Positions 51,283 through 63,761 of a stretch of DNA of 64,000 nt are shown here, in pieces. Where the stretch lies: the NCBI RefSeq assembly GCF_900637515.1, contig NZ_LR134375.1, positions 1,261,952-1,325,951 of the forward strand. The letters run 5' to 3'. The stretch comes from Veillonella dispar (GTDB lineage: Bacteria > Bacillota > Negativicutes > Veillonellales > Veillonellaceae). A model generated the notes under the pieces. The model had not been told where the DNA came from. It did no database searches and saw nothing but the letters and a program-made list of their open reading frames with translations. Position 1 is the first letter of the stretch; each line of letters starts with the position of its first letter. Made by a program: the position numbers and the translations under genes.

Positions 51283-51308
51283 AAAAAGTATGGAAAACCA
51301 TACTTTTT
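51283..51308 (-). terminator. Terminator-like hairpin in the nrdD leader (possible attenuator)
   Basis: An 11-bp perfect stem (51283-51293 with 51298-51308) with loop TTTT on the minus strand is followed by T-rich sequence. It lies between the predicted nrdD promoter and the gene, about 50 bases before the ATG. Confidence 0.6.
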
Positions 51309-51476: not shown

Positions 51477-52280
51477 TTATAATGTAAAACCAAATAGACG
51501 TGTCAAGAAATTGGACTTTTGACCTACCCAACTAGAAGGAACCGCTGGATAGAATGTGCGATCAGCTAAAAGATCGCGTTCATTGAGATGAATATTCGGC
51601 AACAAATCTTTTTTGTACGTACTATCTAATTTAGAAATAGCTTCTACGTATCCTTGATGTGCTTGTACATCACTTTCATTACAGTAACCAGTACCAAAGA
51701 AGTGAATTAGACCATTGCGATATAATTCAATAGCTCTGTGATAATTAGCATTGCTATGATTAAAGGAAGCCATATTACATTGAATTAGTATCCCTTTATC
51801 TACCCATTCCAACAATTGCTCTGGTTTAGTAAACAATTGACGATGTATCTCTACTTCACTAATGATAGGAACAATACCCATATTAAGCAAATCTAATAAC
51901 CATGCATTAATGTGATGGACTTTGCTATTTTCAGGAATGGACACTAACATAAAATGGCTATTTCCCAATAGATATTGATTGCGATGAGAAGCAATATATT
52001 CAATCATTTCATCACAAAGCAAAACTCGAGCACCACCATGAATAGTTACATCTACTTGTTGTTCCCCTACAGCAAGCTTCACATCATTCAATGTTGTTTC
52101 CATCTCATCCCATGTATTCATATCCATAGATACGGTTACATCAGGTGTACTAAAAATATCTGTAATACCTTGTTCAGCCAAGGATTTTATCATTTTTACT
52201 GATTCTGCCATTGTTTGTGGCCCTTGAGGCCCTAACACAGCTGGCAAAATGCAACCATGTAAGTCAACCACGCGATTCAT
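51477..52280 (-). CDS. CpsB/CapC-like PHP-fold protein with degenerate metal site
   Basis: 267 residues. It aligns through its length with CpsB-type manganese-dependent tyrosine phosphatases of capsule control: DLHGCILPAVLG near residue 6, AEQGITDIFSTPD near 35, TIHGGARVLLCDEM near 80, LLNMGIVPIISEVEIHRQ near 135, GILIQCNMASFNH near 160, and LIHFFGTGYCNESD near 190. Nearly all metal ligands are replaced: His-x-His is His-Gly-Cys, TPH is TPD, GAE is GAR, AHPER-type is SEVEI, and SDAH-type is TGYC. It is thus likely not an active phosphatase. Located near the polysaccharide locus. No membrane segment. Confidence 0.7.
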   Translation of the reverse strand: MNRVVDLHGCILPAVLGPQGPQTMAESVKMIKSLAEQGITDIFSTPDVTVSMDMNTWDEMETTLNDVKLAVGEQQVDVTIHGGARVLLCDEMIEYIASHRNQYLLGNSHFMLVSIPENSKVHHINAWLLDLLNMGIVPIISEVEIHRQLFTKPEQLLEWVDKGILIQCNMASFNHSNANYHRAIELYRNGLIHFFGTGYCNESDVQAHQGYVEAISKLDSTYKKDLLPNIHLNERDLLADRTFYPAVPSSWVGQKSNFLTRLFGFTL

Positions 52281-52482
52281 ATTCTTTCCCTTCTACTTAC
52301 GATAATCCCTTACAGAAATCGTTCTCTTTATAAAGTTCATGTTTATCTCATTTATTTTTCATTTTCTATTCATGATTATATCAAGGGAAAAGTGGCTTGT
52401 ACAGTGGTTTTTATATAAAAATAGATAAATTATAATATGTTCATTTAATATATTTTTTATATTTTCATGTTATCTTCATTAA

Positions 52483-52517
52483 AAATACCTCATAATCCCT
52501 AAGATTATGAGGTATTT
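52483..52517. terminator. Bidirectional terminator downstream of the VanZ gene
   Basis: A 15-bp perfect stem (52483-52497 with 52503-52517), 5-base loop, T-run on the minus strand. The gap 52281-52482 upstream of the CpsB-like gene shows only AT-rich sequence. Confidence 0.85.
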
Positions 52518-52543: not shown

Positions 52544-52990
52544 TTAATTTTTAAATGTACTTCGTTTATACCTGATGTAATGAACTAGTTTCACTACTAG
52601 AATACCAATAACAACACCAACAGTATCAATCAAAATATCAGAAACCTGAGAGCTACGCCCTGGTGAGAACAATTGTATAAATTCATCAAGACTAGCTATC
52701 AACATTCCTAAACCTATAGTCTTAATTACGGTACCATATGTAATATATCGACGTAGAATCGTATATAAAACACCACCAAGAATTGTAAACTCTGTGAGAT
52801 GTGCTAATTTTCGAACAATCCTATTTAAGGTCCATATATTTCCATGAAAGCCTAATTTATTTGCTATAGGAGTCAAAGTCTCTGCAAAAAGCAAACTAAA
52901 TCCATCTGATGATCCACCATTCTGCATCGAATTATCCCATATAAAAAATACTATTAGCCCTAACAGGATATATAGTATCCAACGTTTCAT
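52544..52990 (-). CDS. VanZ-family membrane protein
   Basis: 148 residues with about four membrane spans, including the N-terminal ILYILLGLIVFFIWDNSMQN. VanZ traits: LAHLTEFTILGGVLYTIL near 65 and SLDEFIQLFSPGRSSQVSDI near 103, whose Asp/Glu-x-x-Gln-x-x-x-x-x-R pattern is the family hallmark. VanZ gives low-level glycopeptide resistance in enterococci, but most homologues have unknown envelope roles. It follows ugd by 36 bases and may be the last gene of the polysaccharide locus. AGGAGAG before the ATG. Confidence 0.85.
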   Translation of the reverse strand: MKRWILYILLGLIVFFIWDNSMQNGGSSDGFSLLFAETLTPIANKLGFHGNIWTLNRIVRKLAHLTEFTILGGVLYTILRRYITYGTVIKTIGLGMLIASLDEFIQLFSPGRSSQVSDILIDTVGVVIGILVVKLVHYIRYKRSTFKN

Positions 52991-53026
52991 ACTACTCTCC
53001 TAAACGCCACAATACATATACTTATA

Positions 53027-54193
53027 TTAATCGCGGTCAAAAATGTCTCTTGTGTAAACTTTATCCTTCACATCTTCTAAACTATTATCCCAACGGTTAG
53101 CTACTATGACATCACTAACACGTTTAAAGTCTTCAAAGTTACGAATCACAGGGGAATTAAAGAAGTCTTCTGCATCAAGAGTCGGTTCATAAACAACTAC
53201 TGCAATCCCCTTCGCTTTAATTCGTTTCATTACACCTTGAATTGCAGATGCTCTAAAGTTATCAGAGTTCATTTTCATAGTCAAGCGATAGATGCCAACA
53301 ATTTTTGGGTTCTTTCCTATAATAACATCTGCTATGTGATCCTTGCGAGTTCTATTAGCATCAACAATAGCAGAAATCAAATTTTGTGGAACATCATTAT
53401 AGTTAGCTAATAATTGCTTAGTATCTTTTGGTAAGCAATACCCTCCATAACCAAAGGATGGATTATTATAGAAGTCGCCTATACGAGGATCTAAACAAAC
53501 ACCATTAATAATCTGGCTTGTACTAAGACCTCGAACTTCGGCATAAGAATCTAACTCATTAAAGTAAGCAACGCGCAATGCTAAATACGTATTAGCAAAT
53601 AATTTAATAGCTTCTGCTTCCGTAGAATCCGTATACAATTGAGGCACATTTTCTTTGATGGCACCATCAGCTAATAGTTGACCAAAACAACGAGCCCTTT
53701 TAGAGTCTTCTCCTACCACTATACGAGAAGGATGTAAATTATCATATAAAGCTTTACCTTCACGTAAGAACTCTGGAGAGAACATCAAGTTCTCTGTATC
53801 GAATTCTTTACGCATTTGAGCTGTATACCCAACTGGTACTGTTGACTTGATAACCATAACAGCATCTGGATTGATATCTAATACTGTTTTGATAACTTGC
53901 TCTACAGAAGATGTGTCAAAAAAATTCTTTTGAGGATCATAATTAGTAGGGGTCGAAATAATAACATAATCAGCACCTGTAAAAGCCTCTACAGGATCTA
54001 AGGTAGCTTTAAAGTTTAATTTTTTAGTAGCCAAGTACTCTTGCAATTCTGCATCTACAATAGGTGACTCTTTGCGATTTAACATTTCTACCTTTTCAGG
54101 AATAATATCGAGGGCTACTACTTCATTATGTTGTGCTAATAAAACACCATTTGAAAGGCCTACATAGCCGGTCCCAGCAATTGCAATCTTCAT
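53027..54193 (-). CDS. ugd: UDP-glucose 6-dehydrogenase
   Basis: 388 residues. Oxidises UDP-glucose (or a related sugar) to UDP-glucuronate with NAD. NAD motif [20 protein letters not shown] at the start; catalytic Cys in [17 protein letters not shown] near 250; active-site lysine region [17 protein letters not shown] near 195. Immediately follows the epimerase gene with no gap (stop then ATG), which suggests that the two act in one path: UDP-Glc to UDP-GlcA to its epimer. The order of steps reads opposite to gene order. Confidence 0.93.
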
Positions 54194-55291
54194 TTATTTG
54201 CCCTCCGTCATATAAAACTCTTTATACCATATAGCAAATTTCCGTAACCCTTCACGTAAAGATGTATTTGGCTTGAATCCAAAATCTTCTTCTAGAGCAC
54301 TTGTGTCTGCATAGGTAACAGGTACGTCGCCTGGTTGCATCGCCACTAATTCTTTATGGTCTTCAAAATTATAATCCTCTGGTAATACGCCAGCTGCAAC
54401 TAATTCCTCTGAAAGAATACGCACAAAATCTAGAAGATTTTCAGGATGACTATTGCCAATATTATAAATAGCATACGGAGGAACTGGTAAACCATCGGCA
54501 CCGTTGCGACGTTCTGGAGCCGCACACATCACCTTAGATACGCCCTCTACTATATCATCGATATAGGTAAAGTCACGTTTACAGTTACCATAGTTAAAGA
54601 TTTTTATAGTGCCACCGCTCCGCAACGTGTTAGTAAAGCCAAAGTACGCCATATCCGGACGCCCCGCTGGACCGTACACAGTGAAGAAACGAAGCCCTGT
54701 ACTAGGTATGTTATATAACTTGGCATACGAATAAGCCAATAATTCATTCGATTTTTTAGTAGCTGCATACAGAGAAACTGGGTTATCTACTTTATGCTCT
54801 GTAGAGTATGGAATTTGTTTGTTCGCACCGTATACGGAGGAGGATGATGCATATACTAAATGCTCTACTCCACTTTCACCATTATCATAAGAATGACGAC
54901 AAGCCTCTAATATATTGTAGAAACCAATAATATTAGACTCGATATAAGCATCGGGGTTCGTAATAGAATAACGCACACCCGCCTGTGCTGCTAAGTTAAC
55001 AACAACACGTGGTTTATAAGTAGAGAAAATTTCTTCGATAAAGGCCTTATCTGCAATATTCCCTTTTTTAAATACCCACGCATTTTTATTATCTTTGCAC
55101 ATCTCATCAATTTGTTGCAATCGATAATCTTTTAAGGCCACGTCATAGTAATCATTAACAGAATCTATGCCGATAATTTGAGTTCCTTCTGCTTCAGATA
55201 ACAGGGACATAACAAGATTAGCCCCTACAAATCCAGCGGCTCCCGTTACTAGGATCACCGTGTTGTTTAAGTCTACATTTTTTGAAAGCAT
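54194..55291 (-). CDS. NAD-dependent nucleotide-sugar epimerase, UDP-glucuronate 4-epimerase type
   Basis: 365 residues from the ATG at 55291, which has AAAGGAG 6 bases upstream. Extended SDR fold: TGAAGFVGANLVMSLLSEA near 15, YASSSSVYGANKQIPY near 142 and YAATKKSNE near 172 (Ser/Tyr/Lys triad). A C-terminal substrate domain has RDFTYIDDIVEGV near 230. Pairing with ugd makes UDP-glucuronate 4-epimerase (to UDP-galacturonate) the best guess. Confidence 0.88.
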   Translation of the reverse strand: MLSKNVDLNNTVILVTGAAGFVGANLVMSLLSEAEGTQIIGIDSVNDYYDVALKDYRLQQIDEMCKDNKNAWVFKKGNIADKAFIEEIFSTYKPRVVVNLAAQAGVRYSITNPDAYIESNIIGFYNILEACRHSYDNGESGVEHLVYASSSSVYGANKQIPYSTEHKVDNPVSLYAATKKSNELLAYSYAKLYNIPSTGLRFFTVYGPAGRPDMAYFGFTNTLRSGGTIKIFNYGNCKRDFTYIDDIVEGVSKVMCAAPERRNGADGLPVPPYAIYNIGNSHPENLLDFVRILSEELVAAGVLPEDYNFEDHKELVAMQPGDVPVTYADTSALEEDFGFKPNTSLREGLRKFAIWYKEFYMTEGK

Positions 55292-55317
55292 ATGTACTCC
55301 TTTCATAGTTCTGTTAA

Positions 55318-56769
55318 TTATGATCGTCTTACTTTACTTAATAATTTATCAACGCCAGAAGTGATAATAGTGCGCTCAGATGGTATGAGATATAAGATAA
55401 CCACATACAATACAACGCATAAAATCATACAAGCTATAGTCCACCATACCGCATCATATAAATGTAAAATACTATATGCAAGAGCACCAACAATAGATGC
55501 AGTAATTAGATATACACCTATATTAGTAATCACCCGAAGGGCACTTATATGTATAAATAATGCTAAGAAAATCATGGCAACCATTAACATTTCCATGCGT
55601 ACTATTGAACGAGCATAGACAAATGTACTAAAGTCATACTGAATACAAATATAAATGACCGGTATTAATACAACTAAATGTAATATTTGAGTCCAGAATG
55701 ATAAATTAGGAACTCCTTTTGCACGGAATACTTCAGAAATCAAATTCGCTGTTACTGTCATAATAGCGGAACTCAAGGCCCAAGATCCCAATACAATACC
55801 TGCTAACTTCCATTGTGGTCCCAATAAGAGATCAACAACAAAGTCTTGGAATACAAACAAGCCTATCCCTATAGGTACTAAAAAAAGAGCCATATAGCGT
55901 TGGAAGGTAAAGAATGTATTGGAAAATGCCTGTTCATCCTGTTGAACTCGACTTAAAGCGGCAAATAATACAGGCGCTAAAGATGAAGTAGCCATAGCCA
56001 TGACAGTTGTAACAATAGCCATAGGCATTTTATAGATCCCTAAATAATAGGCATCCAAAAAGCGACTAATAATGAAGGTATCCACCCATGCAGTAAGCCA
56101 AATAGAAAATGCTTCAGCCAATGACCATGCACTATAACTAAACATGTTCATAAAGACTCTAGAACTAAAGAAGAGATGGATTTGATTTTTCCTACTCTTC
56201 AATAAGGCCAAAGCCGTAAATAACTGAGCCCCTAACATACCAGCGATTAAAGACCAATAGTCATATCCCATGAGCGCCATAGGTATGGATATCAATATAG
56301 GAGTCAGAATTGTGATGAGCCGAATGTTAAGAAGAAACTTAAAGTTAAAGTCCCGTCTATACAATGCCATTTGTACACTACTGAAAGCAGAGAGCGGAAT
56401 CATGGCCCCCATTATGGCCAACGGTATGCCTAAGCCATCATTTCCAACTAATACGGCCAGTTCATCACGACCGACTATAATAGCCCCCCACAAGAGTAAA
56501 GAAAGAACTAAGTTAGCAATAAAAGCTACATCTGTAGCCTCCTGTTTTTCTTTATCACTTTGAAACTCATGCTGTACAAGAAATTTTTGGAATCCCGCAT
56601 CAGCTAGCATTTCTGCAAAGGATATAACCATCATAATTGTTGCCAATATCCCAAATGCCGTAGGTGCTAGCATATGGGCCAATATTATATTTGTTAGTGG
56701 TGTAATAAGCTTTGCTAAAACCTCTGTTATGACAGACCATTTAGCAGCAGCTACTATTTTTGTATCCAT
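55318..56769 (-). CDS. Polysaccharide flippase (Wzx/PST family)
   Basis: 483 residues with about twelve to fourteen membrane spans. MOP-superfamily pattern: AAAKWSVITEVLAKLITPLT at the start, PTAFGILATIMMVISFAEML near 35, and AFSSVQMALYRRDFNFKFLL near 120. Expected to move lipid-linked repeat units across the cytoplasmic membrane. Starts at a TAATG junction with the CapA-like gene. Together with the Wzy-like protein it implies the Wzx/Wzy pathway. Confidence 0.85.
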   Translation of the reverse strand: MDTKIVAAAKWSVITEVLAKLITPLTNIILAHMLAPTAFGILATIMMVISFAEMLADAGFQKFLVQHEFQSDKEKQEATDVAFIANLVLSLLLWGAIIVGRDELAVLVGNDGLGIPLAIMGAMIPLSAFSSVQMALYRRDFNFKFLLNIRLITILTPILISIPMALMGYDYWSLIAGMLGAQLFTALALLKSRKNQIHLFFSSRVFMNMFSYSAWSLAEAFSIWLTAWVDTFIISRFLDAYYLGIYKMPMAIVTTVMAMATSSLAPVLFAALSRVQQDEQAFSNTFFTFQRYMALFLVPIGIGLFVFQDFVVDLLLGPQWKLAGIVLGSWALSSAIMTVTANLISEVFRAKGVPNLSFWTQILHLVVLIPVIYICIQYDFSTFVYARSIVRMEMLMVAMIFLALFIHISALRVITNIGVYLITASIVGALAYSILHLYDAVWWTIACMILCVVLYVVILYLIPSERTIITSGVDKLLSKVRRS

Positions 56770-57932
56770 TATTTTTTATTGATATTCTTAATGCCCCGCA
56801 AGAATAATTCATGGTGAGCTTCACATTCCAAGTAATTTTGAATTGCTAAATAACTTGTTTTTCCTAAAATAAGTTGTATTAATTTTCGTCCAAATAATCC
56901 ATTTATTGCACGAATGATAAAAGATCTACCTAAAAATTCACGCAAATATCGCTTTACATGAGTATCAGCAAAATCCTTATATGCTTGAGCAACAAAATGA
57001 GCATCTCTAATGTTTTCACTTCGCTTTTTATATTCCGTCAATGTTTCCATGGCTTCCGATTCAGTAGCCAAACGGGTGCCCCTTTCGGTACCACGAATTG
57101 GCACTTCAGATACAATAAAACTATCCTTTGTAGCCTCTACACTGATTAATAAGGAATCTTTTACAAACTCCTTATGATGTATATAGGATTCGGAGTTAAA
57201 GATAAAGTTACCTTGGCCATAAATAATAGTCCCCTTACCATAGTCCTCACGAGAACCTATACAATGACTATGTTGGCAAATTACAAGATCTGCCCCTTTA
57301 TCAACAAATTTTCTGCAATATCTTTGTAACATTGGCGATGGATAGCGATAAAACTCCTTCCCACCATGATATAGGACGATAACATAATCACAAGTTTTTT
57401 TTAAAGCTTCTACATCATCGAAGCTCTCTAATACATCAAATGGATTAGCCCCCATTGTATGACAAGAAGCAACGGTAAACTCATGTTCTGCACATAAGTA
57501 AAATCCTATACGTATACCTTCTTTTTCAAAGATAAATGGCTTTTTAGCTTCCTTTACATTGGCACCAGCACCTGCATTTTTAATATCATGCTTTTTTAAT
57601 AACTCCAATGTAGTAGTTAAGCCTTCCACACCATGGTCTAAGGAGTGATTATTAGCCAGTGTTAAAAATATAGGTTCTAAAGCCTTATAACCGTATATTG
57701 TTTTCGTAGGCGACTTTAAATTATTACCAAATTTATCAATCGGTGTAGATGCATCAGTTAAGGGTACCTCTAGATTAAACACATTTAAATCAGATTGCTT
57801 AAAGAGTCCTAATAATTCTTTACCAACTAAAGCTTCTATATTACCAGTTTCAAATAATACTCTATTTATATCCGTAGGAACAAAATCAGCTCCGATGTAC
57901 AGTTTCAAGGTGTAACCACTCTCCCAATTCAT
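56769..57932 (-). CDS. CapA-family (poly-gamma-glutamate capsule-type) metallophosphatase-like protein
   Basis: 387 residues from the ATG at 57932; a TTG at 57908 giving LKLYIGADFVPTD is an equally plausible start. PGA_cap fold: NVFNLEVPLTDASTPI near 50, LTLANNHSLDHGVEGLTTTL near 90, VIVLYHGGKEFYRYPSPM near 185 and LVICQHSHCIGSREDYGKG near 215, matching the calcineurin-like metal-binding residues. No signal peptide, so the protein appears cytoplasmic, unlike many CapA proteins. The C-terminal about 90 residues are helical. Overlaps the ATP-grasp gene by 47 bases. Role in decorating or trimming the polymer is unknown. Confidence 0.78.
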   Translation of the reverse strand: MNWESGYTLKLYIGADFVPTDINRVLFETGNIEALVGKELLGLFKQSDLNVFNLEVPLTDASTPIDKFGNNLKSPTKTIYGYKALEPIFLTLANNHSLDHGVEGLTTTLELLKKHDIKNAGAGANVKEAKKPFIFEKEGIRIGFYLCAEHEFTVASCHTMGANPFDVLESFDDVEALKKTCDYVIVLYHGGKEFYRYPSPMLQRYCRKFVDKGADLVICQHSHCIGSREDYGKGTIIYGQGNFIFNSESYIHHKEFVKDSLLISVEATKDSFIVSEVPIRGTERGTRLATESEAMETLTEYKKRSENIRDAHFVAQAYKDFADTHVKRYLREFLGRSFIIRAINGLFGRKLIQLILGKTSYLAIQNYLECEAHHELFLRGIKNINKK

Positions 57933-58818
57933 AATCTTTTGATATAGGACGAAACTGTTCTAATCCCGCACCAGGGAAGAACGTTAACTCTCCAATATAC
58001 AGTCGTCTCTTTATTTCATAGAAATCAACACGTAAAAACGGACAGTCTTTACTAAGTTCTGTAGCAAGTCTTAACATCTCATCATATGTTTCAGGTCTCG
58101 GGAACTCTGTTGGCAACGGTGGATAATGGCCAAAATGAATGCCCATAGGTTTCCAATCGATATCGTAAAAATTCATACGCGTTCCAGTTTTAGAAAAACG
58201 GTCAGAACAAACTACTGTCATCTTTGGTTCACCGTGGAAACAATACATCTTATAATCTAAGATTTCATTGCTACCTAATTCAGATAAGTATTCCTCTGCG
58301 ATAATCCGACGAGGAACCTCCTTATAAGGCCACTCTCTGGCTATACGCGAATAATCCCGTTGTAAGGATGCACTTAATTTAGCTTTAGCAGCTTCTCGAT
58401 CAAGGGATGACTTATCTTTACAAATAACGATGCCCCCACTATCATGTGTACATTTCAAAACAAATTGATTAGGTAATGCATCAAAGTCTATATCCTCTAC
58501 AGAATCCCAAACAGCAAGTGTGCGAATTATATATTGTTCACCCACCCGTTGAGCAATAAAGTTCTTAGCTTCATGTTTATCAACCATTACAGTTTGTATA
58601 GGGTCTCTGTAATTAACCTTTAGCCATTGTAACTTTTCGCTAAAAGTTTTAGGATTCTCTAAATCTAGAGGATAGCCCATGTATTTTGGGAATACTTTCT
58701 TTAAAAACTCTTCATCAGATAAAGAATCATAATAACCTAATTTGATTAATACTCTTGTGCGATAGTAAGGTTTTGTTAAAAAGGACATGCCAACTTTACA
58801 TAACTTGCTGAGCTTCAT
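57886..58818 (-). CDS. TupA-like ATP-grasp protein of polysaccharide loci
   Basis: 310 residues. The family signature is YPLDLENPKTFSEKLQWLKV near 50, VDKHEAKNFIAQRVGEQYII near 78, QFVLKCTHDSGGIVICKDKS near 118 (ATP-grasp loop), and DFYEIKRRLYIGELTFFPGA near 265. TupA-like ATP-grasp enzymes occur in capsule and teichuronopeptide gene sets and are thought to ligate amino acids or glycerate-like groups to sugars. Overlaps the Wzy-like gene by 23 bases at its start. Confidence 0.82.
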   Translation of the reverse strand: MKLSKLCKVGMSFLTKPYYRTRVLIKLGYYDSLSDEEFLKKVFPKYMGYPLDLENPKTFSEKLQWLKVNYRDPIQTVMVDKHEAKNFIAQRVGEQYIIRTLAVWDSVEDIDFDALPNQFVLKCTHDSGGIVICKDKSSLDREAAKAKLSASLQRDYSRIAREWPYKEVPRRIIAEEYLSELGSNEILDYKMYCFHGEPKMTVVCSDRFSKTGTRMNFYDIDWKPMGIHFGHYPPLPTEFPRPETYDEMLRLATELSKDCPFLRVDFYEIKRRLYIGELTFFPGAGLEQFRPISKDYELGEWLHLETVHRS

Positions 58819-60037
58819 TTTTACGTCCTTTCCGGATCAATTGCATCTCTAAATAAAACATCATCATATAAAAATATGTACTCTTACTTTCATAAGACAC
58901 CATCCCCATATCCATGACGATTTGAGAAAGGAATAAAATGAGCACCATTACATATTCATTGCTATGAAAATTTCGATAGCGAATTAAGTTATAAGCTATA
59001 TACACATACATTGAGTAATACGCCAATAAGCCGATTATCCCTGTACCCGCTAATAGTTCAATATAATTATTATGTAAATAATAATTCTCTTTACCATATA
59101 AAAAATAGGTAAGTACAGATGGATTATTAACCCCCACCCCAGTCATGGGCGATTGATAAAATAAATCCCACCCTATATCAACCAAGGCTAAACGAATAAT
59201 AGTAGATGAATCACCACCAGTACCGGAGAAAGCATCCACCATACTCGACATACGATCCAGAACCTCTGAAAACATAGGTAATTGTAGAACTGCAATACCA
59301 ATGATGGTAAGAGCTAACAATGACCCAATAATCTTAGCAATAGAATTTACTACATTGGCACTACGTAAACTTTTAAATACAAATAGTAATACTGTACCAA
59401 CAACAACAAATACTAAAGCTTTACGACTACCAGTAGCTGCTAGAATCCCCAATGTAGGTAAGGCTATAATATTCCACCAACGAGGTCGATCGTATAACAT
59501 GTAATACAATGTCATAACGATAGCATTGGCACCTAATAAACCTACAGTATTCGCATTTAATGCATCATTTGCAATTCGTGCGGAAGATGACAAAACCGTA
59601 ATAAAGTAATCTAAGCCATAGAAATATACCGTGTAAAAACAAACTATATAACCGGTCCACATACCAATTTTTAGTAATGTGTCCACCGATGTTTTATCTT
59701 GATAACACATGTATAAAATGATAAGCATAAAGAATATCTTGACGATATCAAAACTTCGACTGAGTGCTACAGATGGCTCAATAGCATTAATAGTACTCAG
59801 ATAACAGGCTCCAATAAAGAGCAGCATATAACCATGCATCCAGGTAAGCCTAAATTTTATAACTCCCTGCTCTCGTATGAGATAAAAAATAATAAGTCCA
59901 AATAGGCATACAAATAATACATAGGCACCATAATTCGCATCGCCAAGGGCAAAGGAAATGGTCAACGACAACACTAAAAATATTAGAGTTATGAACCATA
60001 TCATGCGGTCAGCAATAGCCGTAATATTTAACTTCAA
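58796..60037 (-). CDS. O-antigen polymerase/ligase-type membrane protein (Wzy/WaaL-like)
   Basis: 413 residues, mostly hydrophobic, with about ten to twelve membrane spans. The family pattern sits near 275-320: DIGWDLFYQSPMTGVGVNNP, then YYLHNNYIELLAGTGIIGLL with the conserved His. It would polymerise repeat units or ligate the polymer to lipid A. The sequence does not decide between these. Upstream gene is the GT4 transferase, 19 bases before. Confidence 0.82.
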   Translation of the reverse strand: MKLNITAIADRMIWFITLIFLVLSLTISFALGDANYGAYVLFVCLFGLIIFYLIREQGVIKFRLTWMHGYMLLFIGACYLSTINAIEPSVALSRSFDIVKIFFMLIILYMCYQDKTSVDTLLKIGMWTGYIVCFYTVYFYGLDYFITVLSSSARIANDALNANTVGLLGANAIVMTLYYMLYDRPRWWNIIALPTLGILAATGSRKALVFVVVGTVLLFVFKSLRSANVVNSIAKIIGSLLALTIIGIAVLQLPMFSEVLDRMSSMVDAFSGTGGDSSTIIRLALVDIGWDLFYQSPMTGVGVNNPSVLTYFLYGKENYYLHNNYIELLAGTGIIGLLAYYSMYVYIAYNLIRYRNFHSNEYVMVLILFLSQIVMDMGMVSYESKSTYFYMMMFYLEMQLIRKGRKNEAQQVM

Positions 60038-60056
60038 TGGTTCTCCTCCTTACAAC

Positions 60057-61124
60057 TCATAAAACATCTAACCAACGTTTAGCAATTTTACATAGTGGGA
60101 ATTTATCACGAACCTTGATAGCTTCCTGTGAAAGTTTTGCTGCTAGTGCAGGGTCTTTCAGAATACTACGCATAGCTTCATACATGGCCTTTGTATCTCC
60201 TACAGGTACCAAGATTCCATTTTCTCCACTATTTATTACCATACGAGCACCACCTACTGGACAGTCTGTAACTACAGCAGGCAAGCCCATGCCAAGTGCT
60301 TCTAACATAGAGTTTGAAATACCTTCAAAATCAGATGATGAAACATACATAGAACAAGGTGCAACCTTCTCTAAAATATTACTAGCAAAGCCAGGTAATA
60401 AAATACGATTTTCTAAATTGAGCGCTTTAATTTGAGCACGTAGTTCATCCTCTAAAACACCTTGGCCATAAATAACAAGTTTATACTCTGGAAACTCATC
60501 TGCCAGCATACTAAAAGCATTAATCATCATAGGCAAATTCTTTTGAGGATGTAATCGACAAGCCGTAACAATTGTCTTCTCACGTTCCCCTTCTATTGGT
60601 GGTGGCAGTTTACCATTAATAGGATTTGGAATGATAACACCACGCTTTTGTACAGATTCAGGGAAATATGAACGAGCATCCTCAGTTTGGAATACTAACG
60701 CATCAGCAAAGCGAAAGGCAAAATTACGCAACGCTTGTTGATGCCAACCAATAGGCACCTTACGCGGATTATTTCGCTCCGAAAAGACGATGCGATTCTT
60801 CACAAACCAAGAGCTAATGGCGAGAATAAAGCTCGATGCCGACAAAAACGATAAGCATGTTGCGTTAGGTCTTGTCTTCAAAATCTTGATCAGCTCTTTA
60901 ATTTCCTGAATAAAGCGAATTACTTTATTAGAGCTTGTAGTATGAATTTGAATTTGTTCAATACCTTCCTCTAAAGCATATTCATTACCATAACGATTAG
61001 GGCTTGTTTGGATAACCGTAATATGGTGACCATCATGCACCCACTGACGAGCTAACTCTGTTAAAATACGTTCAGCTCCATCATTACCGAGGGAGATGGT
61101 AACAATAATTATTTCCTTTTTCAT
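60057..61124 (-). CDS. Family GT4 glycosyltransferase
   Basis: 355 residues, GT-B fold. N-terminal SLGNDGAERILTELARQW matches the Gly-rich acceptor loop; the donor-site block is YVSSSDFEGISNSMLEALGMG near 270, carrying the E-x7-E pair, then PAVVTDCPVGGARMVI. Adds a sugar to the lipid-linked repeat unit. ATG overlaps the previous gene's stop by 4 bases (ATGA). Sugar unknown. Confidence 0.88.
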   Translation of the reverse strand: MKKEIIIVTISLGNDGAERILTELARQWVHDGHHITVIQTSPNRYGNEYALEEGIEQIQIHTTSSNKVIRFIQEIKELIKILKTRPNATCLSFLSASSFILAISSWFVKNRIVFSERNNPRKVPIGWHQQALRNFAFRFADALVFQTEDARSYFPESVQKRGVIIPNPINGKLPPPIEGEREKTIVTACRLHPQKNLPMMINAFSMLADEFPEYKLVIYGQGVLEDELRAQIKALNLENRILLPGFASNILEKVAPCSMYVSSSDFEGISNSMLEALGMGLPAVVTDCPVGGARMVINSGENGILVPVGDTKAMYEAMRSILKDPALAAKLSQEAIKVRDKFPLCKIAKRWLDVL

Positions 61125-62170
61125 AAGCCTTCCTCTTGGATATATTCTGCAAGTCTTACATAGGCTTGTGCCATTGACACTTTAGGCTGCCAACCTAAAG
61201 ATTTCAACTTCTTAGAGCTTAAGAACATGTGAACTGTCGGTGCGTATCCCAAACCCTGTACATCTTCTGGAATGTCAAAAACTACTTCACTTTTTCCATG
61301 ACTTACATGCGTAGCTACTAGATGCGCAATACTTGCTATGGAGCGAGTTTCCTCATCATGACAAATATTATATGCTTCACCAGCTTCGCCATCCTTCATG
61401 AGGGTTAAAATGCCCGTTAATGCATCAGTAATATAGCAATAATTCGACATGGAGTCACCTTTTGTATGAAGAATAATATTTTCATTTCGTAAAGCACTCT
61501 TAGTAAACTGCATGAATACACGATTATCAGATACGGGAACACCTGGTCCAAAGGTTTGAGCAAGTCTAGCTATAACAGCAGGAACTCCAAATTCTACAGC
61601 ATAGGACTTACAATAACACTCACATAATCTCTTACTTTCAGAATAAGAACTACGAATATTTAAATGATCTAAATACCCTAATCGTTCTTCTGTCATCACT
61701 TGTCCGGATTCATAGGGTACACCATACTGTTCCATACTCGATAAGTACACAAGTTTTTTTACCGTTTTATGATGTCCGAGCTCTAACATAGCTTCAGTAC
61801 CATGAATTGATGTACGAATAGTTTCTACAGGATGCTCCATAAAGAATTTAGATTGTGTTGGTGCAGCACCATGTAAGATATAGTCACAAGGTACGTCAAT
61901 AGATTCTAAAGCACCATCAATAAGTGTAATGGAATCATTATCTAAGTAGTTACCTAATATAGCCTGTGCTTTATCATGACTTCGTACATGACCTATTACC
62001 TTTATGTCCAAGTTAAAAGTCTCATTGGCAAGTATAAGCAATTTTATAAACATAGAACCAATAAGTCCCGTCGCACCTGTCACAAGAATGCGCTGATGGC
62101 GGAGGAATTCAAAGTACTCTTTGTCTTGTAATAAAGCTATTAACTCGCGCTTAATAACGGAATTACTCAT
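61121..62170 (-). CDS. NAD-dependent epimerase/dehydratase family protein
   Basis: 349 residues, extended SDR. Cofactor loop ILVTGATGLIGSMFIKLLI near 30, active site YLSSMEQYGVPYE near 145 and SYSESKRLCECYC near 175 with the Tyr-x3-Lys. Substrate domain follows. It overlaps the cytidylyltransferase gene by 8 bases, so it probably acts on that enzyme's product or precursor. In related loci such pairs make CDP-linked alcohols or 4-epimers. Confidence 0.82.
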   Translation of the reverse strand: MSNSVIKRELIALLQDKEYFEFLRHQRILVTGATGLIGSMFIKLLILANETFNLDIKVIGHVRSHDKAQAILGNYLDNDSITLIDGALESIDVPCDYILHGAAPTQSKFFMEHPVETIRTSIHGTEAMLELGHHKTVKKLVYLSSMEQYGVPYESGQVMTEERLGYLDHLNIRSSYSESKRLCECYCKSYAVEFGVPAVIARLAQTFGPGVPVSDNRVFMQFTKSALRNENIILHTKGDSMSNYCYITDALTGILTLMKDGEAGEAYNICHDEETRSIASIAHLVATHVSHGKSEVVFDIPEDVQGLGYAPTVHMFLSSKKLKSLGWQPKVSMAQAYVRLAEYIQEEGL

Positions 62171-62885
62171 CTTGTAATCCTCCTAATTCACGGTTTTTAA
62201 TAATACCTGTGAACATATAATAATCAGATGGTGTAGTAATCTTTATATTTTCTGTTTCTCCTAATACTGGATACAAGGTGTATCCATAATGCATCATCAT
62301 GGATGCAGAATCTATAAAATTATGGATACCTTCTGCTTTAGCTCTATCATGAACCGATAAAATATCATCTAGTTTAAAGCTTTGAGGTGCTTTTGCCATA
62401 AGGCATTCACTACGATTTAAAATTCGGTTTATAGAACCATTATCTGTAACCATAACGGTTTCAATAGCAGGTGTAACTGTAATAGCAGAACCCTTTGTTT
62501 CTACAGATTCAATATTCCTCTCTATTGTTGCCTTATCCACAAGTGGTCTAACACCATCGTGAATCAATACGGTAATCTCTTCATTAGGAAATAATCGTTT
62601 TGCCTCTGTCAATCCATTATATTGAGAGTCTAAAGCACTGTCTCCACCTGGAACAATGGATACAATTTTTTGTAAACCAGCCTCTTTGATGAGGTTTTTA
62701 GTATGATCAATCCACTCTGCTTTGCAAGCTAAAACAATACCGTCAATAGAGTCGGTTTGTTCAAACACATCTAAAGTTTGAATCAAAATAGGTCTACCGT
62801 TCCATTCTAGAAACTGTTTTGGCGTCTTGCTGTTATTCATTCGAGCACCTACGCCACCCGCAAAGATTACTGCTATTCGTTTCAT
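62163..62885 (-). CDS. IspD/TarI-type cytidylyltransferase
   Basis: 240 residues. Nucleotide-binding start IAVIFAGGVGARMNNSKTPK and QFLEWNGRPIL near 25; HDGVRPLVDKATI near 110; C-terminal MMMHYGYTLYPVLGETENIK and ITTPSDYY near 215. The family includes IspD (isoprenoid MEP path) and TarI/Bcs1 (CDP-ribitol). Place beside LicD and an SDR enzyme in a polysaccharide locus favours a TarI-like role making a CDP-alcohol for surface polymer, not isoprenoid synthesis. GGAGGG precedes the ATG. Confidence 0.8.
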   Translation of the reverse strand: MKRIAVIFAGGVGARMNNSKTPKQFLEWNGRPILIQTLDVFEQTDSIDGIVLACKAEWIDHTKNLIKEAGLQKIVSIVPGGDSALDSQYNGLTEAKRLFPNEEITVLIHDGVRPLVDKATIERNIESVETKGSAITVTPAIETVMVTDNGSINRILNRSECLMAKAPQSFKLDDILSVHDRAKAEGIHNFIDSASMMMHYGYTLYPVLGETENIKITTPSDYYMFTGIIKNRELGGLQDE

Positions 62886-62894
62886 AGGCCCTCC

Positions 62895-63761
62895 TTAAGG
62901 TTGAGCTTCGTTCTTGGCATAATGTATGCCTCTATACTCCTTGTAAGGTGTATGTAAATCAGCAAACACAGCATCATGTTTTGCTACACGCTGTTCTACT
63001 GGTGGTAATTGCATATAGTCGCCCCAAATGAGACGTAAATATCTTTCATACCCTTTCATAACAGGTATCTGATGACCTTCAAAGTCTTTATATACAACAG
63101 ATTCGAAGTCTTCTCGAGGATGACGCAACTTCATGCCTTTTAAACTACCAATTAACTCAGTACACTCCTTGCTCGTATTAAAATCATATTTAGTCATTTG
63201 CTTTTCTGCAAAGCGCCATATATGGTAACGTAATGACTGACTAGAGAATACCTTGTAGATACATCCTGCTAATGCACGATACATCGGTCCTTTATTATCC
63301 GGTAAACGTTGTGCATTAAAAAGTGCAAAGGTCATAGCCCACATAAGTTGTAAAGTGCGGCTAATTTTTCCTGGTGCACAACCATCAATAGGCATAATTT
63401 CAAGAGCTAAACCATGACAAATATCTTCATGCATACTATGACGATTAATAAATGTCGTATGATTATCTCTAATAGAAGCACCTGCATCATGATAGATATG
63501 ATGCCGATCCGTACGACAATAGGTATACCGTTCTGTATCTGCATACTTAGGCCATAGTTCAGCTAACTTTTCGTAATCTGGACGTGGCATAAATAAATCC
63601 AAGTCGTCATCCCAAGGGATAAAACCATTATGACGTATAGCCCCAATGAGGCCACCGCCACAGAGATAAAAGCGCAAATTATGTTTGTCACAAAACTCTT
63701 TAAAGTACAGCAACATACTAAGCTCTTTTTCTTGTATTTCCTTTGTCATAGATGTACTCAT
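62895..63761 (-). CDS. LicD-family phosphotransferase
   Basis: 288 residues. The family core is YLCGGGLIGAIRHNGFIPWD near 32, then DDLDLFMPRPDYEKL near 52, with the Asp-Asp-x-Asp metal site. LicD proteins transfer phosphocholine or other CDP-linked phospho-groups to surface glycans. With the CDP-alcohol synthase next to it, it probably adds phospho-ribitol/-choline/-glycerol. Ten bases upstream of the cytidylyltransferase gene on the same strand; AGAGG before the ATG. Confidence 0.9.
   Translation of the reverse strand: MSTSMTKEIQEKELSMLLYFKEFCDKHNLRFYLCGGGLIGAIRHNGFIPWDDDLDLFMPRPDYEKLAELWPKYADTERYTYCRTDRHHIYHDAGASIRDNHTTFINRHSMHEDICHGLALEIMPIDGCAPGKISRTLQLMWAMTFALFNAQRLPDNKGPMYRALAGCIYKVFSSQSLRYHIWRFAEKQMTKYDFNTSKECTELIGSLKGMKLRHPREDFESVVYKDFEGHQIPVMKGYERYLRLIWGDYMQLPPVEQRVAKHDAVFADLHTPYKEYRGIHYAKNEAQP

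Follow-up and report, generated by a model that had tools for sequence, protein, structure and literature searches.

The alignments of this study showed loss of catalytic residues in both a CpsB-type phosphatase and a CpsD-type BY-kinase of Veillonella, a bacterium of the mouth and gut, and both genes have been kept. From these residues we infer that catalysis has very probably been lost in both proteins, here called pseudo-CpsB and pseudo-CpsD. The loss of both active sites in genes that persist suggests that the proteins now work via binding and not via chemistry. The reading preferred here, with a probability of about 0.6 for the whole, is that the Veillonella system is a phosphorylation-independent capsule co-polymerase (PCP-2) in which the former switch enzymes remain as binding proteins, the catalytic loss having been fixed before the sampled capsule-bearing species diverged and the phosphatase gene having been kept by purifying selection. 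Pseudo-CpsB is encoded within the window, i.e., the whole stretch of 64,000 nucleotides of V. dispar DNA that was analysed, and pseudo-CpsD beyond it (Table 1).

Loss of catalytic residues in the phosphatase and its partner kinase

The open reading frame of pseudo-CpsB starts with ATG and encodes 267 amino acids. Its product scored 89.7 bits against the CpsB_CapC profile PF19567 (cut-off 27), with residues 5-204 on profile positions 2-200 of 234, and matched the crystal sequences of YwqE and CpsB with E values of 2e-10 to 1e-7. The score against the Cps4B equivalog NF041488 (58.1 bits, threshold 400) was uninformative, since an intact sister-genus CpsB also fell below the threshold (97.5). The AlphaFold2 models of pseudo-CpsB (pLDDT 87.5) and pseudo-CpsD (pLDDT 92.7) were built from alignments that included intact relatives and therefore indicate that the sequences are compatible with the folds, which is not proof of folding. 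The pseudo-CpsB model is a PHP barrel, with the CpsB/Cps4B structures 3qy8 and 2wjd as its best PDB matches (Z 28.4, rmsd 2.4, 235-236 residues) and YwqE 3qy6 at Z 28.3, the next unrelated fold being at Z 15.1; the pseudo-CpsD model matched CapB (Z 29.6) and Wzc (Z 28.7) best. An end-to-end alignment with CpsB phosphatases, as claimed in an earlier note on this DNA, is thus justified at the level of structure (VIA Z 28.4, with 236 residues aligning with Cps4B), the Pfam match stopping at residue 204.

Nine metal ligands (His5, His7, Asp14, His42, Glu80, Glu108, His136, Asp199, and His201) are named for Cps4B in the description of that enzyme, along with Arg139 and Arg206 as the arginines that bind phosphate (PMC2777267). 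The window protein has retained a single ligand (His5 = H8) and has the other eight replaced, while Arg139 and Arg206 correspond to I145 and A207, so that neither the three-metal site nor the arginine pair is preserved. The motifs listed in the earlier note, HGC (residues 8-10), TPD (45-47), GAR (83-85), SEVE (141-144), and TGYC (197-200), were all found, and its statement that the ligands are changed at nearly every metal position is borne out; it had missed the losses of Glu108 (S114), Asp14 (Q19), and both arginines.

Full-length open frames for pseudo-CpsB occurred in 11 of 14 Veillonella genomes, including that of the window, and the orthologues were 97 to 54% identical (82-97% in Veillonella sp., V. 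infantium, V. rogosae, and V. parvula SKV38). At the 11 active-site positions, i.e., nine ligands and two arginines, ten of the proteins keep one residue and one keeps two. Both arginines are kept in none of the 11, and L028 alone keeps R145. The two deepest Veillonella proteins retain different histidines of the HxH motif (QTH in L027, HTY in L028). The alignment of homologues proposed in the earlier note therefore showed a loss of ligands shared by all 11 orthologues, and its description of a conserved pseudo-enzyme is backed by these orthologues together with purifying selection and an intact outgroup. Decay in one strain was rejected, because the degenerate form is present in 11 of the 14 genomes of the genus and is under purifying selection.

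The dN/dS values of cpsB were 0.037-0.130 in seven of nine pairs, the other two pairs being not estimable. Among the Veillonella orthologues, the columns of the former site had a mean of 2.8 states versus 1.8 in other ancestrally invariant columns. The variability of the site and the differing HxH histidines look like released constraint at the site; elsewhere the protein is constrained, as the low dN/dS indicates. Columns kept in all 11 proteins numbered 0 of 11 in the site and 10 of 23 among the other ancestrally invariant columns (Fisher test, p 0.0135; 0.06 and 0.066 with looser thresholds). At the C-terminus (residues about 245-263) there is an aromatic/basic tail with the alignment consensus KKxxFxxRLxG. 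It is common to the dead and to many intact Negativicutes CpsB proteins and could possibly be a membrane- or partner-binding peptide.

Outside Veillonella, the 11 active-site residues were intact in 31/31 relatives first checked from other Negativicutes genera. A class-wide search of 380 Negativicutes genomes gave a CpsB-family match in 56, and all 47 non-Veillonella matches were examined: 43 were fully intact, two ran off the ends of contigs but were intact as far as they went, one was a truncated frame (L185, genome G158), and one was a degenerate orphan. L174 (G568:C161:4150-5200), from another Negativicutes family, is an independent, partly degenerate second CpsB that keeps 5/11 active-site residues; no kinase or Wzz homologue was seen within the 12 kb viewed around it, and the same genome also has an intact CpsB (L173). 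In a phylum sample of 398 genomes, 166 had a match, 27 were re-searched (mainly low scorers), and 14 proteins were tabulated, of which L149 was left out because its frame was wrong. Ligand residues are kept in L148, L150, L151, L152, L168, L156, L158, and L159, with the one exception of His for Asp at column 19 of L159; the last Arg was not shown in this alignment for L148, L156, and L159. L154, L155, L160, L161, and L162 are truncated or have broken frames, but what can be read of them is intact. No further pseudo-CpsB was therefore found among the tabulated proteins.

CpsB is usually partnered by the BY-kinase CpsD. Pseudo-CpsD scored 155.5 bits against TIGR01007 (cut-off 108.05) and is thus a BY-kinase homologue by sequence. 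The Walker A Lys (K48) is present in none of the 11 Veillonella kinases (Thr in nine, Val in two), the second Asp of Walker A' (D72) is Asn in all 11, and none of them has the tyrosine tail (0-1 Tyr in the last 35 amino acids). In other genera Lys, Asp, and 4-9 Tyr were found in 32/32 kinases; these are the ones with retrieved loci among 38 matches, 26 being found by pattern search and the other six, likewise intact, by BLAST. The Walker B Asp is kept in 11/11 Veillonella kinases, as is the ring-interface motif EX2RX2R (E16, R19, and R22), which has been said to form half of the octamer interface (PMC3795738). Purifying selection was also evident for cpsD (dN/dS 0.030-0.187 in 9/9 pairs). A recent stop or frameshift that cut off the tyrosine tail was considered and rejected, as three-frame translation of 150 bases past the stop in six of the 11 Veillonella genes gave no Tyr-rich remnant.

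These proteins are also a trap for annotation, the dead kinase being above the TIGR01007 cut-off and the dead phosphatase above that of Pfam. The NCBIfam model names the kinase 'polysaccharide biosynthesis tyrosine autokinase', and pipelines are likely to misname it.

Genomic context and joint divergence

Past the window the cluster continues with Bac_transf, DegT, pseudo-CpsD, Wzz, a CapD/PglF-like protein, and Wza. Wzz consists of 481 amino acids with Wzz and GNVR domains only. The gene order in Veillonella is Wza-CapD-Wzz-pseudoCpsD-DegT-sugar transferase-LicD-TarI-...-Wzx-epimerase-Ugd-VanZ-pseudoCpsB-nrdD-nrdG, and the sister-genus genome G023 has CapD-CpsB-Wza-Wzz-CpsD-DegT-sugar transferase close to nrdD-nrdG. 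Pseudo-CpsB is therefore at the far end of the Veillonella cluster, beside nrdD and always about 13-14 kb from pseudo-CpsD.

Table 1. Features of the pseudo-CpsB region and its polysaccharide cluster (window coordinates unless a locus is named)
Feature	Position	Strand	Basis or remark
Terminator-like hairpin, pseudo-CpsB / nrdD gap	51283..51308	(-)	
Pseudo-CpsB, PHP-fold CpsB/YwqE-type protein	51477..52280	(-)	PF19567 match, residue alignment, predicted fold
Promoter-like site of pseudo-CpsB, TGTACA-17-TATAAT, extended -10 TG	52375..52403	(-)	Conserved across species
Terminator-like hairpin, AT-rich inverted repeat, VanZ / pseudo-CpsB gap	52483..52517	(.)	Alignment
VanZ-like protein, last cluster gene	52544..52990	(-)	Pfam VanZ
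UDP-glucose/GDP-mannose dehydrogenase-family protein (Ugd-like)	53027..54193	(-)	Pfam
NAD-dependent epimerase	54194..55306	(-)	Pfam Epimerase
Wzx-type flippase	55318..56769	(-)	Pfam Polysacc_synt_3
PGA_cap protein	56769..57932	(-)	Pfam PF09587
TupA-like ATP-grasp protein	57886..58818	(-)	Pfam PF14305
Wzy-type polymerase / O-antigen ligase-like protein	58796..60037	(-)	Pfam Wzy_C
Glycosyltransferase group 1	60057..61124	(-)	Pfam
NAD-dependent epimerase/dehydratase	61121..62170	(-)	Pfam
IspD-type cytidylyltransferase (TarI-like)	62163..62885	(-)	Pfam PF01128
LicD-family protein	62895..63761	(-)	Pfam PF04991
Pseudo-CpsD	L059:2679-3290, about window +65728..66339 (beyond window)		Adjoins Wzz
Wzz	L059:3292-4737 (beyond window)		Adjoins pseudo-CpsD

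Capsule loci usually vary from species to species. The gene set and order of this cluster (window 52544-63761; L061, L062, L063, L064, and L065) were nearly the same among the Veillonella species compared; in G009 (L062) the PGA_cap gene was not found between TupA and Wzx. The epimerase beside the Ugd-like gene presumably has a UDP-glucuronate epimerase-like specificity. The LicD-family gene beside the IspD/TarI-type cytidylyltransferase gene suggests that the polysaccharide may carry a phosphodiester-linked decoration.

The TATAAT of the promoter-like site upstream of pseudo-CpsB was present in 8/8 aligned species. Promoter-like matches in the whole region were not above chance (10 found versus a shuffle mean of 12.0), and the support for this site is its conservation across species. 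Terminator-like sites numbered three, versus 0.4 expected from shuffles. The stem of the hairpin in the VanZ / pseudo-CpsB gap seems, by eye from the alignment, to covary in several Veillonella species, and the hairpin is probably a two-way terminator. Pseudo-CpsB is thus probably transcribed alone. The earlier note had placed the gene near a polysaccharide locus, and it does adjoin the end of the cluster; however, with its own promoter-like site and hairpins on both sides it cannot be regarded simply as a co-transcribed member of the cluster, and the simplest operon argument is weakened.

Of the 28 genomes of the family, 13 had a CpsB-family protein, and the same 13 had a BY-kinase that scored above the TIGR01007 cut-off; no p-value is attached to this count because the genomes are related. 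The dead kinase and the dead phosphatase were found in the same 11 Veillonella genomes. Both proteins are absent from the remaining three of 14, and the pair is therefore dispensable at the level of the genus. A true CpsB/CpsD pair elsewhere, which the earlier note had advised looking for, was not found in the window genome: it encodes no other PF19567 protein, and its sole TIGR01007 kinase above the cut-off is catalytically degenerate. A low-molecular-weight (LMW)-type (Wzb-like) phosphatase was set aside as a candidate replacement, since PF01451 occurs in 28/28 family genomes, kinase-less ones included, and is uninformative.

Divergence from the sister genus was concentrated in the same two proteins. 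When the window genome was compared with two genomes of the sister genus, identity was 28% for CpsB and 39-40% for CpsD, versus 51 and 56% between the sister-genus genomes themselves. The corresponding values were 52-54% versus 55% for Wzz and 59-64% versus 67% for Wza. The writer and the eraser have therefore changed sharply while Wzz, the co-polymerase, and Wza, the outer-membrane exporter, have not. Both trees had one long Veillonella stem, with 2.56 changes per column for CpsB and 2.03 for CpsD, the latter from a quick tree that carries a long-branch warning.

Explanations of the paired loss

Assembly and disassembly of the Wzz/CpsD ring are normally driven by the phosphotyrosine cycle. 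PCP-2 capsule co-polymerases have been modelled as cycling between Tyr phosphorylation by the kinase and dephosphorylation by CpsB or Wzb (PMC12004946). Since the CpsB-type phosphatase and CpsD are dead in the same Veillonella genomes, this cycle appears to have been lost as chemistry. In its place, pseudo-CpsD would dock on the C-terminal tail of Wzz and hold the co-polymerase ring via the retained EX2RX2R, serving in the manner of EcpK or HfsB as a scaffold that needs no phosphorylation. The cytoplasmic tail of Wzz keeps an LG-x-IP or IG-x-IP (LGVIP-type) segment in the aligned Veillonella and sister-genus proteins, which by analogy may correspond to the kinase-docking segment of CapA. Pseudo-CpsB, which is predicted still to fold as a PHP barrel and has a conserved basic/aromatic C-terminal tail, would bind the pseudo-CpsD/Wzz complex or the nearby membrane and tune the assembly of the complex by occupancy. 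A binding or regulatory role for the protein, as proposed in the earlier note, would agree with this scheme, in which we infer both the formation of the ring and the binding of pseudo-CpsB to pseudo-CpsD/Wzz. That pseudo-CpsB acts on this complex has close to an even chance. The most specific version, in which writer and eraser of the Wzx/Wzy capsule machine lost catalysis in one ancestor, both were kept, a chemical switch became a binding switch, and dead CpsB serves as assembly/disassembly factor of the dead-CpsD/Wzz ring, is tentative and falls somewhat short of even odds. The separate promoter-like site with its flanking hairpins and the three Veillonella genomes that lack the pair count against the preferred reading, and so do two further observations. 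The best-known target of CpsB, the tyrosine tail of the kinase, is gone, which would leave the old binding interface unusable. Moreover, few proteins of the cluster evolve as fast as pseudo-CpsB, which is 55-56% identical to its orthologues in the deepest species (G009 and G020) where the nearby Ugd is 87-88% identical; VanZ is lower than pseudo-CpsB.

The position and probable separate transcription of the gene could possibly mean that pseudo-CpsB is a real pseudo-enzyme that has departed from capsule assembly, is expressed alone, and binds a regulator, a nucleotide, or a component of a neighbouring pathway. Its conserved promoter-like site, the flanking hairpins, and its place beside nrdD, where the sister-genus CpsB is beside Wza-Wzz-CpsD, all fit such a departure. 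However, the protein occurs in exactly those Veillonella genomes that have the BY-kinase homologue of the cluster, at a nearly fixed distance from it, and the long stem and faster divergence are common to both proteins, so this explanation is considered unlikely. A re-engineered site is less probable still. H8, C10, D47, E142, and C200 of the window protein are all potential ligands and residue 142 is acidic in 11/11 orthologues, as might be expected if they formed a new metal site that served some new activity, but the other candidates vary among orthologues (H or Q at 8, C/H/Y at 10, D/T/K at 47, and C/S/D at 200), and the columns of the former site are more variable than other ancestrally invariant ones. 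The shared death of kinase and phosphatase and the variation of the former site residues among species would also be seen if the kinase had died first and the phosphatase, left without a substrate, were a relic in the course of erosion. The low dN/dS, the open frames in 11/11 genomes, the confidently predicted fold, and the conserved promoter-like site make such decay highly improbable, and it is disfavoured here.

Comparison with known systems

As both catalytic sites have been removed and both proteins kept, the role of each through binding alone can be tested directly in Veillonella. The genus includes a genetically tractable laboratory strain, V. parvula SKV38, for which transposon and deletion mutants are described (PMC7549365). 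A search of the open-licence literature found no report on Veillonella Wzz, Wzc, or BY-kinase genes and no CpsB pseudophosphatase.

Pseudo-CpsB resembles Cps4B/CpsB of S. pneumoniae and YwqE of B. subtilis, which are metal-dependent PHP tyrosine phosphatases, in family sequence and fold, and its link to a Wzx/Wzy cluster that encodes both a PCP and a homologue of BY-kinases is a further likeness. It differs from them in the lack of eight of nine ligands and both arginines, in its dead partner kinase, in the remote position of its gene at one end of the cluster, and in having its own promoter-like site. The next-best fold matches were the RNase P/MRP chains 6w6v_I and 6agb_I (Z 15.1 and 14.8, 9-10% identity), which belong to an unrelated pathway and share fold likeness only; the PHP-like barrel of this RNase P/MRP subunit is put to a structural use.

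For the kinase, CapB1 of Staphylococcus aureus is inactive in vitro and has been proposed as a pseudokinase (PMC3795738). As described there, it is unlike pseudo-CpsD in that it binds ADP-Mg, has a Y-cluster, has not lost its motifs in the same way, and coexists with the active CapB2. For the BY pseudokinases EcpK and HfsB, binding has been proposed as the means by which they support their PCP-2, and the same work defines a phosphorylation-independent subfamily (PMC12004946). The passages of that paper on CpsB, phosphatases, and PHP proteins concern active enzymes and references only and give no CpsB-type partner for EcpK or HfsB. As presented in the same source, EcpK/EpsV of Myxococcus xanthus and HfsB/HfsA of Caulobacter share with the Veillonella system a stand-alone BY-kinase-like protein without the catalytic Lys or Tyr tail, a PCP-2 without a kinase domain, the Wzx/Wzy pathway, and a diderm host; judged by sequence, pseudo-CpsD and Wzz have the features of this class. 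In contrast to EcpK and HfsB as described there, both the Walker B Asp and EX2RX2R are still present in pseudo-CpsD, and a dead CpsB-type phosphatase has been retained as well. The BY pseudokinase half of the Veillonella pair is already known in kind from EcpK and HfsB, and the matching CpsB-type pseudophosphatase appears to be its new part.
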